From Rhizobium lentis (GTDB lineage: Bacteria > Pseudomonadota > Alphaproteobacteria > Rhizobiales > Rhizobiaceae), in contig NZ_JACHBD010000003.1 of NCBI RefSeq assembly GCF_014200175.1, positions 310,001 through 374,000 of the forward strand: a stretch of DNA of 64,000 nucleotides. Reading direction: 5' to 3'. Shown in pieces: positions 43,013 through 47,348 of this stretch (position 1 is the first letter of the stretch; each line of letters starts with the position of its first letter). A program made the translations under genes and the position numbers. The notes beneath the pieces are model-generated. The model did not search any database, was not told the DNA's origin, and worked only from the letters and a program-made list of their open reading frames with translations.

Positions 43013-44515
43013 ATGAACAAACGAATCTCCCCTTTGTCGCCCCTCGACATTTCCTCTCCGCCCCCTTTCCAGCCGCAGAGCTTCGATGATCCCGCCAAGG
43101 CCGTCGACACGCTGACCGAACTCTACGAGCGCAATACGGCCTTCCTGATCGAGAGCTTCACCGAGCTTGCCCAAGGCGCTCCGATCGCCTCGCGCTACCG
43201 CGCTTTCTATCCGCAGGTGAGCATCGAGACGACCAGCTTCGGGCATGTCGATTCGCGCCTCTCCTACGGCCACGTCACGGCGCCCGGCATCTACACGACG
43301 ACGGTCACGCGGCCGAAGCTCTTCAAGCATTACCTGAAGGAGCAGCTGTCGCTGCTGATGAAGAGCCACAATGTTCCAGTGATCGTCTCGGAATCGACGA
43401 CGCCGATTCCGCTGCACTTCGCCTTTGGCGAGGGCGCGCATGTGGAAGCAGCGACCTCCGCCTTCGTCGACGTCCCGATGCGCGATATCTTCGACACGCC
43501 GGACCTCAACACCACCGACGACGAGATCGCCAACGGCGAATATATCCCGCCGCCGGGCGAGCCCTCACCGCTTGCTCCGTTCACCGCCCAGCGTATCGAT
43601 TATTCGCTCGCCCGGCTGTCGCATTATACGGCGACGCATGCCGAGCATTTCCAGAATTTCGTGCTATTCACGAACTACCAGTTCTATATTGACGAATTCT
43701 GCAGCTGGGCGCGCAAGCTGATGGCCGAGGGCGGCGACGGTTATACCGCCTTCGTCGAGCCCGGCAATATCGTCACCCTGCCCGGTTCGAGCGTGCCGGA
43801 TACGGATGCGACACTTGCCCGCCTGCCGCAGATGCCGGCCTACCATCTGAAAAAGAAGGGCCATGCCGGGATCACCATGATCAATATCGGCGTCGGTCCC
43901 TCCAACGCCAAGACGATCACCGACCATGTCGCCGTGTTGCGCCCGCATGCCTGGTTGATGCTCGGCCACTGCGCCGGCCTGCGCAACAGTCAGCGGCTCG
44001 GCGATTATGTGCTTGCCCATGCCTATATGCGCGAGGACCATGTGCTCGACGACGACCTGCCGGTCTGGGTGCCGATCCCGGCGCTCGCCGAAGTGCAGGT
44101 GGCGCTGGAGGCGGCCGTCGCCGAAATCACCGGCTACGAGGGTTTCGAGTTGAAGCGCATCATGCGCACCGGCACCGTCGGCACGATCGACAACCGCAAC
44201 TGGGAACTGCGCGACCAACGCGGGCCGGTGCAGCGGCTGTCGCAGGCACGCGCCATAGCGCTCGACATGGAATCGGCAACGATCGCCGCCAACGGGTTCC
44301 GCTTCCGCGTGCCTTACGGAACGCTGCTCTGCGTCTCCGACAAGCCGCTGCACGGCGAATTGAAGCTGCCGGGCATGGCTACCGCCTTCTACCGCACGCA
44401 GGTCAACCAGCATCTGCAGATCGGCATCCGCGCCGTGCAGAAACTGGCCGCCATGCCGAAGGAAGCCCTGCATTCGCGCAAGCTGCGCAGCTTCTTCGAG
44501 ACAGCCTTCCAATAG
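43013..44515 (+). CDS. amn: AMP nucleosidase
   Basis: 500 residues. N-terminal regulatory domain (RYRAFYPQVSIETTSFGHVD) and a C-terminal phosphorylase-type domain with TMINIGVGPSNAKTITDHVA, WLMLGHCAGLRNSQRLGDYV and AIALDMESATIAANGFRFRVP. It hydrolyses AMP to adenine and ribose 5-phosphate, controlling AMP levels. Length agrees with the proteobacterial family. It is a single gene with its own terminator. Confidence 0.95.
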   Translation: MNKRISPLSPLDISSPPPFQPQSFDDPAKAVDTLTELYERNTAFLIESFTELAQGAPIASRYRAFYPQVSIETTSFGHVDSRLSYGHVTAPGIYTTTVTRPKLFKHYLKEQLSLLMKSHNVPVIVSESTTPIPLHFAFGEGAHVEAATSAFVDVPMRDIFDTPDLNTTDDEIANGEYIPPPGEPSPLAPFTAQRIDYSLARLSHYTATHAEHFQNFVLFTNYQFYIDEFCSWARKLMAEGGDGYTAFVEPGNIVTLPGSSVPDTDATLARLPQMPAYHLKKKGHAGITMINIGVGPSNAKTITDHVAVLRPHAWLMLGHCAGLRNSQRLGDYVLAHAYMREDHVLDDDLPVWVPIPALAEVQVALEAAVAEITGYEGFELKRIMRTGTVGTIDNRNWELRDQRGPVQRLSQARAIALDMESATIAANGFRFRVPYGTLLCVSDKPLHGELKLPGMATAFYRTQVNQHLQIGIRAVQKLAAMPKEALHSRKLRSFFETAFQ

Positions 44516-44635: not shown

Positions 44636-44851
44636 TCATCGGCCTGCGACGACAGGCGCTGGGTGCTGCGCAACCACCTGCGGTCGGCCGGCAGCAAGAT
44701 TCAGCCCTGCTATCAGCAGGGTGAAGGCGACGAAGGTGAAAGCGGTGCGCAGCAGAATCTTCAGCCCATCGCCTTCGTCGAACGCCTGGGGACGCTTGTC
44801 ATGGCGGCGGGCCCAGATTTGGCTTGCGAGCGCGATTTCAAGAATACTCAT
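44636..44851 (-). CDS. small membrane protein, putative ECF42 regulon member
   Basis: 71 residues: MSILEIALASQIWARRHDKR, a linker, one membrane helix (LLRTAFTFVAFTLLIAGLNL) and a short polar tail. GAGGAGAA precedes the ATG. Its -10/-35 region on the minus strand (44886-44912) is a mirror of the promoter of the YCII/sigma operon, both fitting the ECF42 pattern with a 17-base spacer. It is thus probably co-induced with that operon. No family recognised; function unknown. Confidence 0.7.
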   Translation of the reverse strand: MSILEIALASQIWARRHDKRPQAFDEGDGLKILLRTAFTFVAFTLLIAGLNLAAGRPQVVAQHPAPVVAGR

Positions 44852-44885
44852 TGCCGTTCTCCTCGACAGGTTTCGATGAAGCCTT

Positions 44886-44912
44886 GTCGAGTGCTGCCTT
44901 GCGATTTCGACA
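44886..44912 (-). promoter_or_regulatory. ECF42-type promoter facing the small membrane protein
   Basis: TGTCGA (44912-44907), 17 bases, CGAC (44889-44886), 35 bases before the ATG at 44851. Matches the TGTCGA and CGA/TC boxes that I recall being reported for ECF42 sigma factors. Confidence 0.6.
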
Positions 44913-44942
44913 GCCGGCGGCGACAAAGATTTTTTCTGCCGC

Positions 44943-44969
44943 TGTCGAAATGTGTGAAGCTCGATCGTC
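44943..44969 (+). promoter_or_regulatory. ECF42-type promoter of the YCII/sigma operon
   Basis: TGTCGA (44943-44948), 17 bases, CGTC (44966-44969), 37 bases before the first YCII start codon. AAGGAGG at 44990-44996 serves translation. Confidence 0.65.
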
Positions 44970-45005
44970 CAGAGTCATTGAAACATCCCAAGGAGGCTGT
45001 CTGCG

Positions 45006-45365
45006 ATGAAATATCTCTGTCAGGTCTGGTTCGACGGCGCGGTGCTCGACGCGATGACGAAAGAGGAGAAGGCCGAGTTCGACGCGAATTCCTTGAACTA
45101 CGACAAGGACCTTGCCGAAAGCGGCCACATGATCGTCGCCCAGGCGCTGCAGCCGCCGACATCGGCGGTGACCGTGCGGGTGCGCAGCGGTGAAACATCG
45201 GTGACGGACGGTCCTTTCGCCGAGACGAAGGAGGCGCTCGGCGGTTTCATCCTGATCGAGGCCAAGGATCTCAACGAAGCGATCCGCATCGCCGCCGGCA
45301 TCCCGCTTGCGAAGCTCGGTGCGATCGAGGTGCGGCCCATTCATTCCTTCGGAAAAGACGCGTGA
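45006..45365 (+). CDS. YCII-family (DGPF) protein 1
   Basis: 119 residues. KYLCQVWFDGAVLDAMTKEE starts the ferredoxin-like YCII fold and VTDGPFAETKEALGGFILIE carries the name-giving DGPF motif. Proteins of this family are genetically tied to ECF42 sigma factors, but their biochemical role is unknown. It is the first of three tandem copies; copies 1 and 2 are most alike. The gap to the next start is ten bases. Confidence 0.92.
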   Translation: MKYLCQVWFDGAVLDAMTKEEKAEFDANSLNYDKDLAESGHMIVAQALQPPTSAVTVRVRSGETSVTDGPFAETKEALGGFILIEAKDLNEAIRIAAGIPLAKLGAIEVRPIHSFGKDA

Positions 45366-45375
45366 GGAGACGGCG

Positions 45376-45735
45376 ATGAAATATCTGTGCCAGGTCTGGT
45401 TCGAAACCGCGAAGATCAACGCAATTTCCGCCGAGGAAGGCGAAAAGCTGACGAAGGATTCGATCATCAACGATGATCGGCTGCGCGACAGTGGCCACCT
45501 GCTCGTCGCATTGGCGCTGCGCGAGCCGGCCACAGCCGTGACGGTCAGGGTTCGCAGCAACGAAGTGACGGCGACGGACGGCCCTTTCGCCGAGATCAAG
45601 GAACATCTCGGCGGCTTCGTGCTGATCGAGGCCAAGGATATGCAGGAAGCAACCGCGATCGCCGCGACCTTTCCCGTGGCGCGTTATGGCGCGATCGAGG
45701 TGCGACCGGCCTATTCGATCAAGGAGGAGTGCTGA
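45376..45735 (+). CDS. YCII-family (DGPF) protein 2
   Basis: 119 residues. KYLCQVWFETAKINAISAEE and TATDGPFAEIKEHLGGFVLI show the same fold and an intact DGPF motif. It probably arose by duplication of copy 1. It is spaced three bases from copy 3. Role in ECF42 signalling unknown; cytoplasmic. Confidence 0.92.
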   Translation: MKYLCQVWFETAKINAISAEEGEKLTKDSIINDDRLRDSGHLLVALALREPATAVTVRVRSNEVTATDGPFAEIKEHLGGFVLIEAKDMQEATAIAATFPVARYGAIEVRPAYSIKEEC

Positions 45736-45738
45736 GCG

Positions 45739-46098
45739 ATGCGCTACATCTGCCTGATCTATAACAGCGCCGACACCGACGGCAGACTGACAGCTGACGA
45801 AGGCGTCGACCTCATCAAAGCGCATTTCGCCTTCGACGAGGAACTGCAACGCGACGGCTTCATGATCCATTCGGATGCGCTCGAAATGCCTGACCAGGCG
45901 AGCGTGCTGCGGGTTCGAAACAATAGGCTCTCCGTCACCGACGGCCCCTATGTCGAAACGAAGGAGCATCTGGCCGGCTTCTACGTCATCGAGGCGCCTG
46001 ACATAGCGAAGGCGAAGGAGATCGCCGGGCGAATTCCGTCGGCCCGCTATGGCGCGGTCGAACTGAGACCGGTGCGAACGCTCACCCTCCCGAACTGA
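45739..46098 (+). CDS. YCII-family (DGPF) protein 3, DGPY variant
   Basis: 119 residues. RYICLIYNSADTDGRLTADE and SVTDGPYVETKEHLAGFYVI: the motif is DGPY here, and the protein is clearly more distant from copies 1 and 2. It may be the oldest partner of the sigma factor, whose start lies eight bases after this stop. Confidence 0.9.
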   Translation: MRYICLIYNSADTDGRLTADEGVDLIKAHFAFDEELQRDGFMIHSDALEMPDQASVLRVRNNRLSVTDGPYVETKEHLAGFYVIEAPDIAKAKEIAGRIPSARYGAVELRPVRTLTLPN

Positions 46099-46106
46099 GG
46101 TGCCCC

Positions 46107-47348
46107 TTGGAAAGCGTCATCGAGGAGATCTACCGAAGCCAGTCTCGCCGGGTGCTGGCGACGCTGATCCGATTGCTCGGCGATTTCGACCGTGCGGAGG
46201 AAGCGCTGCACGATGCCTTTGCAGCGGCCGCACGAACATGGCCGGTCGACGGCATTCCCGACAACCCCTCCGGCTGGCTGGTGTCGACCGGCCGCTTCAA
46301 GGCGATTGACGCAATCCGCCGGCGAGCGCGTTTCGATGCCGCGCAGCAGCACATCGAGGACAGCCTCTACAGCGTCGACGCAACGGAGATGGGCGAGATG
46401 GAAGCGATCGAGGACGACATGCTGCGGCTGATCTTCACCTGCTGCCACCCTGCGATCCCGGCGGATGCGCAAACGGCGCTGGCGCTGCGGGAAATCTGCG
46501 GACTGACCACCGAAGAGATCGCCCATGCCTTCCTCATCCCGGCGCCGACGGTCGCCCAGCGGATCGTGCGCGCCAAAGGCAGGATACGGACCGCGAACAT
46601 CCCTTATGAAGTGCCGGGCCGCGAGGCGCTACCCGAGCGGCTCGACCGGGTGCTGCATGTCATCTATCTCGTCTTCAACGAAGGCTATTCCGCCTCTTCA
46701 GGAGACGCGGTCGTTCGTGCCGACCTGACCGGAGAAGCAATCCGGCTGGCGCGGCTGCTGCTGGCGCTGCTGCCGCATCCTGATGTTTGCGGACTTCTGG
46801 CGCTGATGCTGCTGCAGGATTCCCGCCGCAGCGCGCGCAGCAGCGAGGAGGAAGCGCTGGTGCTGCTTGCCGATCAGAACCGCTCGCTCTGGGACCGCGC
46901 CAAGATCTTGGAAGGCCTGGCACTCCTGGCCAAGGCAATGCGGACAGACGAGATCAGCACCTATACGGTACAGGCGGCGATCGCCGCCGAACATGCGAAG
47001 GTGGCGACCGCCGAGCAAACCGACTGGCCGCGGATTGCCTTCTACTACGACCTGCTTCTGGCGGCCCAGCCCTCGCCGGTCGTCGAGCTCAACCGCGCCG
47101 TGGCGATTTCGATGGCCGAGGGGCCGGCAAAGGGGCTGGATCTGATCGATGCCATTCTGGGACGCCAGGAACTGCAGGCCTATCATCTTGCCCATTCGGC
47201 CCGTGCCGATTTCCTGCGGCGGCTCGGCCGGAGGGAGGAGGCGATTGCAGCCTACCAGACGGCCTTGTCGCTCTGCCGGCAGGAGCCGGAGCAGGCGTTT
47301 CTCCGAAAGCGGATTTCAGCGCTTGCCGCGGCGTCCGAGCGGCAGTGA
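46107..47348 (+). CDS. ECF42-type RNA polymerase sigma factor
   Basis: 413 residues, starting at a TTG that follows GAGGTGCCCC. Residues about 1-175 contain sigma regions 2 (SRRVLATLIRLLGDFDRAEE, ALHDAFAAAARTWP) and 4 (ALREICGLTTEEIAHAFLIP, APTVAQRIVRAKGRI). The remaining 230 residues are a helical, TPR-like extension (VIYLVFNEGYSASSGD, AIAAYQTALSLC) diagnostic of ECF42. No anti-sigma gene is present, as usual for this group; the extension is thought to control activity. It ends 33 bases inside the convergent flippase-like gene. Confidence 0.92.
   Translation: MESVIEEIYRSQSRRVLATLIRLLGDFDRAEEALHDAFAAAARTWPVDGIPDNPSGWLVSTGRFKAIDAIRRRARFDAAQQHIEDSLYSVDATEMGEMEAIEDDMLRLIFTCCHPAIPADAQTALALREICGLTTEEIAHAFLIPAPTVAQRIVRAKGRIRTANIPYEVPGREALPERLDRVLHVIYLVFNEGYSASSGDAVVRADLTGEAIRLARLLLALLPHPDVCGLLALMLLQDSRRSARSSEEEALVLLADQNRSLWDRAKILEGLALLAKAMRTDEISTYTVQAAIAAEHAKVATAEQTDWPRIAFYYDLLLAAQPSPVVELNRAVAISMAEGPAKGLDLIDAILGRQELQAYHLAHSARADFLRRLGRREEAIAAYQTALSLCRQEPEQAFLRKRISALAAASERQ

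Follow-up and report, generated by a model that had tools for sequence, protein, structure and literature searches.

The window analysed here is a 64,000-nucleotide stretch on contig 3 of the Rhizobium lentis genome (G000; 6,593,023 b, 6.59 Mb). It contains an operon from 45006 to 47348, in which three YCII genes are followed by the gene of a 413-residue ECF42-type sigma factor, and a divergent gene for a small membrane protein on the opposite strand. The small ORF (start 44851, minus strand) and YCII1 (start 45006, plus strand) are separated by a gap of 154 bases that holds two predicted promoters, one facing each gene. The features are arranged as follows:

44636..44851, minus strand: small membrane protein gene, 71 aa, stop codon included (stop 44638-44636; ORF 44851-44639)
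44857..44864, minus strand: Shine-Dalgarno-like GAGGAGAA of the small gene, read from the sequence
44886..44912, minus strand: predicted ECF42-type promoter TGTCGA-N17-CGAC facing the small gene, a nearly symmetrical site
44943..44969, plus strand: predicted ECF42-type promoter TGTCGA-N17-CGTC facing YCII1, from sequence and conservation
45006..45365, plus strand: YCII (DGPF) gene 1, Pfam YCII 7.6e-24
45376..45735, plus strand: YCII (DGPF) gene 2, Pfam YCII 3.1e-15 (scanned from the second codon)
45739..46098, plus strand: YCII (DGPF) gene 3, Pfam YCII 9.2e-20
46107..47348, plus strand: ECF42-type sigma factor gene with a TTG start; sigma r2/r4, DUF6596 and TPR extension

An AMP nucleosidase gene (PF10423) at 43013-44515 converges on the small gene. 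Among the matches listed, the nearest to the sigma gene is that of R. croatiense, which is 97% identical.

The sigma protein has a core matching Pfam Sigma70_r2 (7e-9) and Sigma70_r4_2 (3e-8), with no r3 match, and a C-terminal extension with DUF6596 at residues 178-278 (3.9e-35) and TPR_2 at residues 361-391 (E 4.8e-6, although its 26.7 bits fall short of the cut-off of 27). ECF42 sigma factors are defined by, among other traits, a C-terminal extension of about 200 aa on which activity depends. The ECF core, the C-terminal TPR extension, the adjoining YCII genes, and promoters of the form TGTCG(A/G)-N17-CG(T/A)C occur together at this locus, and TGTCGA/G-N17-CGWC also precedes YCII genes outside it, which bears out the ECF42-type assignment made in the first-pass annotation. 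ECF42 systems with TPR, YCII, and no anti-sigma factor are described in the portions of PMC6180224, PMC8999054, and PMC8103513 that treat the group. The known members (S. meliloti RpoE10, P. putida ECF-10, and the S. venezuelae Sven_0747 group) resemble the present system in the sigma r2/r4 domains with a TPR extension, the adjoining YCII gene, the lack of a recognised anti-sigma gene, and the TGTCGA/G-N17-CGWC promoters. Compared with these, the present locus has three YCII genes and a divergent gene for a one-helix membrane protein, preceded by a matching promoter of its own. As the first-pass annotation had supposed, no divergent small membrane protein is named for ECF42 in the open-access literature searched, including the ECF42 portions of the three papers above; the ECF42 kind of system is known, and the small membrane protein appears to be a new component of it.

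On the minus strand, TGTCGA (44912-44907) and CGAC (44889-44886) are separated by N17; on the plus strand, the same spacer separates TGTCGA (44943-44948) from CGTC (44966-44969). These coordinates confirm the pair of elements that the first-pass annotation had placed in the 154-base gap, facing both genes. The spacings of 35 and 37 given there hold as distances; counted as intervening bases, 34 separate the start codon of the small gene from its -10 element, and 36 do so for YCII1. From the start of the -35 element to the ATG, there are 61 and 63 bases, respectively.

A genome-wide search with TGTCGAW-N16-CGWC returned 31 sites, against 5 for a reversed-pattern control, and the two sites in the gap form the sole pair less than 500 b apart. 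From the site density, we estimate that two outward-facing sites would arise by chance in a 154-b gap at a rate of ~1e-7 per gap, or ~2e-4 in total if 1,500 divergent gaps are assumed. A lone motif site is weak evidence, because 19 of the 29 sites inspected (of 31) fall inside open frames of at least 300 codons. Furthermore, the looser TGTCGA-N16-18-CGWC matches 456 sites in the genome, and the N18-spacer pattern matches 37 against 5 for its own control; therefore, the motif alone does not define a regulon, even though the gap holds the one close pair among the 31 sites of the genome-wide scan that had been suggested.

We collected 97 loci from the genus, one per genome, of which 30 were reached via the small protein, 7 via a sigma search, and 60 via the sigma gene. 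The plus site TGTCGA-N17-CGTC is present in 97/97, and the minus site NGTCGA-N17-CGAC in 94/97, with an N16 spacer in two more; at the single remaining locus (L116), the minus site is absent within the interval searched. In addition, the promoter pair occurs in 31/31 listed loci named Rhizobium (28) or Rhizobiales bacterium (3), a set that partly overlaps the 97. On the level of sequence, this conservation across relatives settles the matter of chance: a chance origin of the pair, which had already been judged hard to credit, is ruled out.

The minus site has a property that the earlier reading missed, namely that it is nearly symmetrical. Among the 94 N17 sites, the full TGTCGA is found on the minus strand in 78 and on the plus strand in 70 (both strands in 65, minus only in 13, plus only in 5, neither in 11). 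The operon promoter, unlike that of the small gene, has a direction, given by its CGTC end. With its near-symmetry, the promoter of the small gene could fire both ways and leaves room for some transcription toward YCII. In the strongest form of this alternative, the minus site would mainly be a second, upstream plus-strand promoter of the YCII operon, lying before the small gene incidentally; the site does read TGTCGA-N17-CGAC on the plus strand in 70/94 loci, and better than on the minus strand in 5. We consider it highly improbable, since the columns outside the search pattern give the site a direction: TGTCGA is directly followed by A in 93/94 and A in 86/94, the AA being kept on the minus side only, and the second position after CGAC is A in 94/94. 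The distance from the minus site to the small ORF is likewise constant, at 57-62 nt across the genus loci, and the small ORF is coding and has a ribosome-binding site. The position preceding CGAC is T in 87/94.

The coding status of the small ORF was assessed on 96 genus ORFs, 25 of which lie outside all groups. Four groups (33, 15, 11, and 6 ORFs) have median dN/dS values of 0.30, 0.26, 0.33, and 0.24, against 0.78-1.58 in shifted frames (65 ORFs). In the fifth group (E; 6 ORFs, 9 pairs), the value of 0.67 compares with 0.62 and 1.12 in shifted frames, and no selection is demonstrable there. An SD-like 4-mer lies ahead of all 96 small ORFs scanned. A chance ORF was rejected on the dN/dS of four of the five groups, the SD motif, and the profile conservation; judged by these signatures, the small ORF is a protein-coding gene. 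One genome of the 97 (G266, locus L106) carries a truncated small ORF with a stop ahead of the membrane helix.

From its N- to its C-terminus, the small protein comprises a short helix, a polar linker containing basic residues, a single membrane helix, and a tail that varies. The AlphaFold2 model (mean pLDDT 70, pTM 0.38; block means of 90-92 over residues 31-50) shows helices at residues 3-19 and 26-54 and a disordered C-terminal tail; the membrane helix, at about residues 33-51, lies inside the second helix and has a hydropathy of 2.05 over 19 residues. The N-terminus is probably cytoplasmic, considering the basic residues that precede the membrane helix. In a 32-member alignment (A3), M1, L4, E5, R35, and L50 are invariant; in the more diverse 30-member alignment (A1), invariance is limited to M1 and R35, while E5 and L50 are kept in more than 90%. 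The conserved portions are thus the N-terminal and membrane helices. The length varies across the genus from about 50 to 77 aa, and the tail is dispensable, because one genus group has proteins of 52-55 residues that end soon past the membrane helix. Pfam and NCBIfam gave no family for the protein of the window and only isolated weak matches for single members, and a known family was rejected on these grounds. No anti-sigma domain was detected, the best such match being NCBIfam NF052375 (E 0.051) in 1 of 30 members, although the protein may still act as the functional equivalent of an anti-sigma factor.

A profile built from the 30 members of A1 was run on 148 genus genomes. The small protein was found in 132 of them, in each case divergent from the orthologous ECF42 operon (97 placements verified on sequence, 35 by coordinates compared by eye), and YCII matches were present in every genus locus scanned. 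This was the search of rhizobial genomes that the first-pass annotation had called for, and the one-helix gene, with its genus-wide occurrence, divergent placement, and matching promoter, proves to belong to the locus. A lack of conservation of the promoter pair or of the small gene in relatives, on which that annotation had staked its proposal, was tested for and did not occur. Orthologs of the sigma factor (E 3e-173 or stronger; next class 5e-102 and weaker) are present in 133/148 genomes. The small protein is missing in 16 genomes, of which 15 are without the sigma ortholog; in the 16th (G258), the start of the sigma gene and a contig end are just 1.3 kb apart, which cuts off the neighbourhood of the gene, so that the small gene is not visible. 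Each of the 132 genomes has one small-protein match, save for weak second matches (4e-4) in G264 and G265.

Beyond the genus, a single-sequence search of the family found the protein in only 5/151, three of them weakly; the result was misleading because the protein changes fast. A profile search of the family gave 22/297, mostly partial matches, and the protein was recovered by the genus profile and by a sigma-anchored approach. By an HMM ranking that included 281 decoys and shuffles (the top decoy had E 0.014), the other genera of the family contain clear homologs in g45 (two genomes) and g62 and a fair one in g86 (E 9e-9 to 4e-4). A facing TGTCGA-N17-CGAC lies about 62 nt ahead of the small gene in g45 and 81 nt in g62; no facing promoter was found before the homolog in g86. 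A genome of g64 (G064) has a 46-residue one-helix ORF with a promoter, unrecognisable by sequence and not recognised by the HMM. In 16 other family stretches, including second ECF42 copies, no one-helix ORF with a facing promoter was found (L167, L174, and L175 among them have no YCII in reach, and the gap was left out). In the second family (f6), 7 of 30 loci have a one-helix ORF of 48-79 residues, 144-158 nt from YCII (two of the 30 are without YCII in reach; L355 was measured from its second ATG), and a matching minus promoter accompanies 3 of the 7; by HMM, the f6 candidates are marginal one by one. At two loci of the order (L348, L349), the small protein is replaced by a divergent gene assigned by Pfam to the GFA family (glutathione-dependent formaldehyde-activating enzyme).

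In 49 ECF42 loci of other organisms from many phyla, no small one-helix ORF was found 50-80 nt after a site, and the identical scan found the small ORF in 30/31 loci of a Rhizobium control. At least one strict site is present in 36/49 of these outside loci, and TGTCG(A/G)-N17-CG(A/T)C lies 35-140 nt ahead of YCII in 26/43 of those with YCII. ECF42 sigma factors in general probably function without the small protein, because 0/49 outside loci carry such a gene. A tree of 52 sigma proteins places the small gene on several lineages, with 6 label changes (at least 3 forced), so a single origin is unsupported. Label shuffles gave a mean of 14.5 changes and reached 6 in 0/500, a result that near-copies favour. 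One f6 row (L385) lies inside a labelled clade and is without the small gene. In genome G045 (L378, C13:483500-488000), two YCII genes accompany the small gene and its promoter, but these 4.5 kb contain no match to the sigma factor; G138, from the same genus, differs in this respect.

G000 contains a second ECF42 paralog (C1:894182-895372) with 45% identity to the sigma factor of the window. Its YCII gene is preceded by TGTCGG-N17-CGTC in G000 and in G128, which is the form that the RpoE10 portion of PMC6180224 gives for those targets of S. meliloti RpoE10 whose starts were mapped. Judging by these promoter sequences, what seems to set the two paralogs apart is the final base of the -35 element. 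According to the same portion of PMC6180224, the YCII gene preceding that of RpoE10 was not raised when RpoE10 was overproduced, and the authors remark that the motif there overlaps the start site; the promoter motif therefore does not guarantee activation. With two such sigma factors in one genome and promoter types only one -35 base apart, another sigma factor, for example this paralog, might use the sites in the gap in place of the neighbouring one. We regard this as very unlikely, since the paralog's YCII gene has TGTCGG, like the RpoE10 targets, and the plus site here is TGTCGA in 97/97; moreover, the small gene is missing from all 15 genomes that have no ortholog of the adjacent sigma factor, though 12 of them do carry a paralog-like sigma match.

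The divergent ECF42 promoter pair probably allows the adjacent sigma factor to drive both its own operon and the gene of a small, predicted inner-membrane protein. When active, the sigma factor (46107-47348) would transcribe the YCII1-3-sigma operon, whose promoter is conserved and from which we infer autoregulation, and in the opposite direction it would transcribe the small gene, whose product would go to the inner membrane as a lineage-specific membrane arm of the module. Co-regulation of the small gene with the sigma operon is well supported as a prediction from the genomes. Several observations were counted against it: the YCII gene of S. meliloti did not respond to RpoE10, the plus-strand reading of the minus site is almost as complete as the minus-strand one (70 versus 78 of 94), the second ECF42 paralog might cross-recognise the sites, the G045 small gene and promoter have no adjoining sigma gene, group E has a dN/dS of 0.67, and G266 has a stop.

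As to what the small protein does, our tentative first choice is a membrane-located output of the response, favoured by its absence from ECF42 loci elsewhere and by G045, which keeps the small gene without an adjacent sigma gene. Small stress-induced membrane proteins are tiny, with one membrane helix and a fast-changing sequence; the present protein resembles them and differs in being tied to one sigma locus genus-wide. The main alternative, possible yet in our view unlikely, is a local modulator that binds either a YCII protein or the sigma factor's TPR part, acting as a membrane tether or feedback brake in place of an anti-sigma factor. A partner role is favoured by the strict linkage and the occurrence at the sigma locus only, with one match per genome but for the weak extras in G264 and G265; the clustering on particular sigma lineages (6 changes against 14.5 shuffled, as near-copies favour) and the conservation of the N-terminal and membrane helices but not of the tail are consistent with it. 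The review PMC8999054, where it treats ECF42, proposes a protein partner for the C-terminal extension; for most of that extension, it says, the partner still awaits identification, and YCII may be involved. Against a regulator stand the lack of an anti-sigma domain, the position of the small gene outside the sigma operon, the 0/49 ECF42 loci of other organisms with such a gene behind this promoter type, and G045. Canonical ECF/membrane anti-sigma pairs, such as ECF26 EcfR of S. meliloti in the portion of PMC6180224 that describes it, share with this locus a one-helix membrane gene near the sigma gene; unlike in such pairs, the small gene here is divergent rather than co-operonic and encodes about 50-77 aa with no detected anti-sigma domain. 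A more specific and rather doubtful proposal is that the protein is the missing membrane partner of the ECF42 sigma factor: its cytoplasmic N-terminal helix would dock on either the TPR extension or a YCII protein and thereby couple a sigma factor that has no recognised anti-sigma factor to the condition of the inner membrane, and the divergent promoters would set the partner-to-sigma ratio. Whichever role applies, a strictly linked, genus-wide membrane protein with a matching promoter offers a concrete and easily deleted candidate for partner or output, and strains of R. leguminosarum, R. phaseoli, and R. tropici are offered as test systems.

The neighbourhoods of 29 of the 31 genome sites were inspected, and two were convincing beyond the gap's own pair. 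A DUF899 gene (L226, G000 C11:108626-109408) starts 78 bases past the start of TGTCGA-N17-CGTC. The strict motif is kept in 25 of the 30 orthologs examined (30 of 46 listed matches) and is lacking in 5, and strong orthologs (E 1e-116 or better) occur in 35/52 genomes with the sigma ortholog and 0/8 without it, in a 60-genome sample. The DUF899 gene is probably a member of the ECF42 regulon, and the joint output of the active sigma factor would then comprise soluble YCII proteins, probably the DUF899 protein, and the small membrane protein. The predicted regulon thereby gains the DUF899 gene, alongside the suggested one-base -35 difference between the paralogs. The second is an orphan YCII gene (L215, G000 C4:226910-226936), which starts 56 bases past the start of TGTCGA-N17-CGAC; on inspection, no sigma gene was apparent in its 3-kb locus.

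Two further genes, both assigned by Pfam, lie behind TGTCGA-N17-CGTC: a TPP enzyme gene (L217, G000 C5:387694) starting 122 bases past the start of the site, and an ImpA_N (type VI secretion) gene (L235, G000 C22:23252) starting 97 bases past it.
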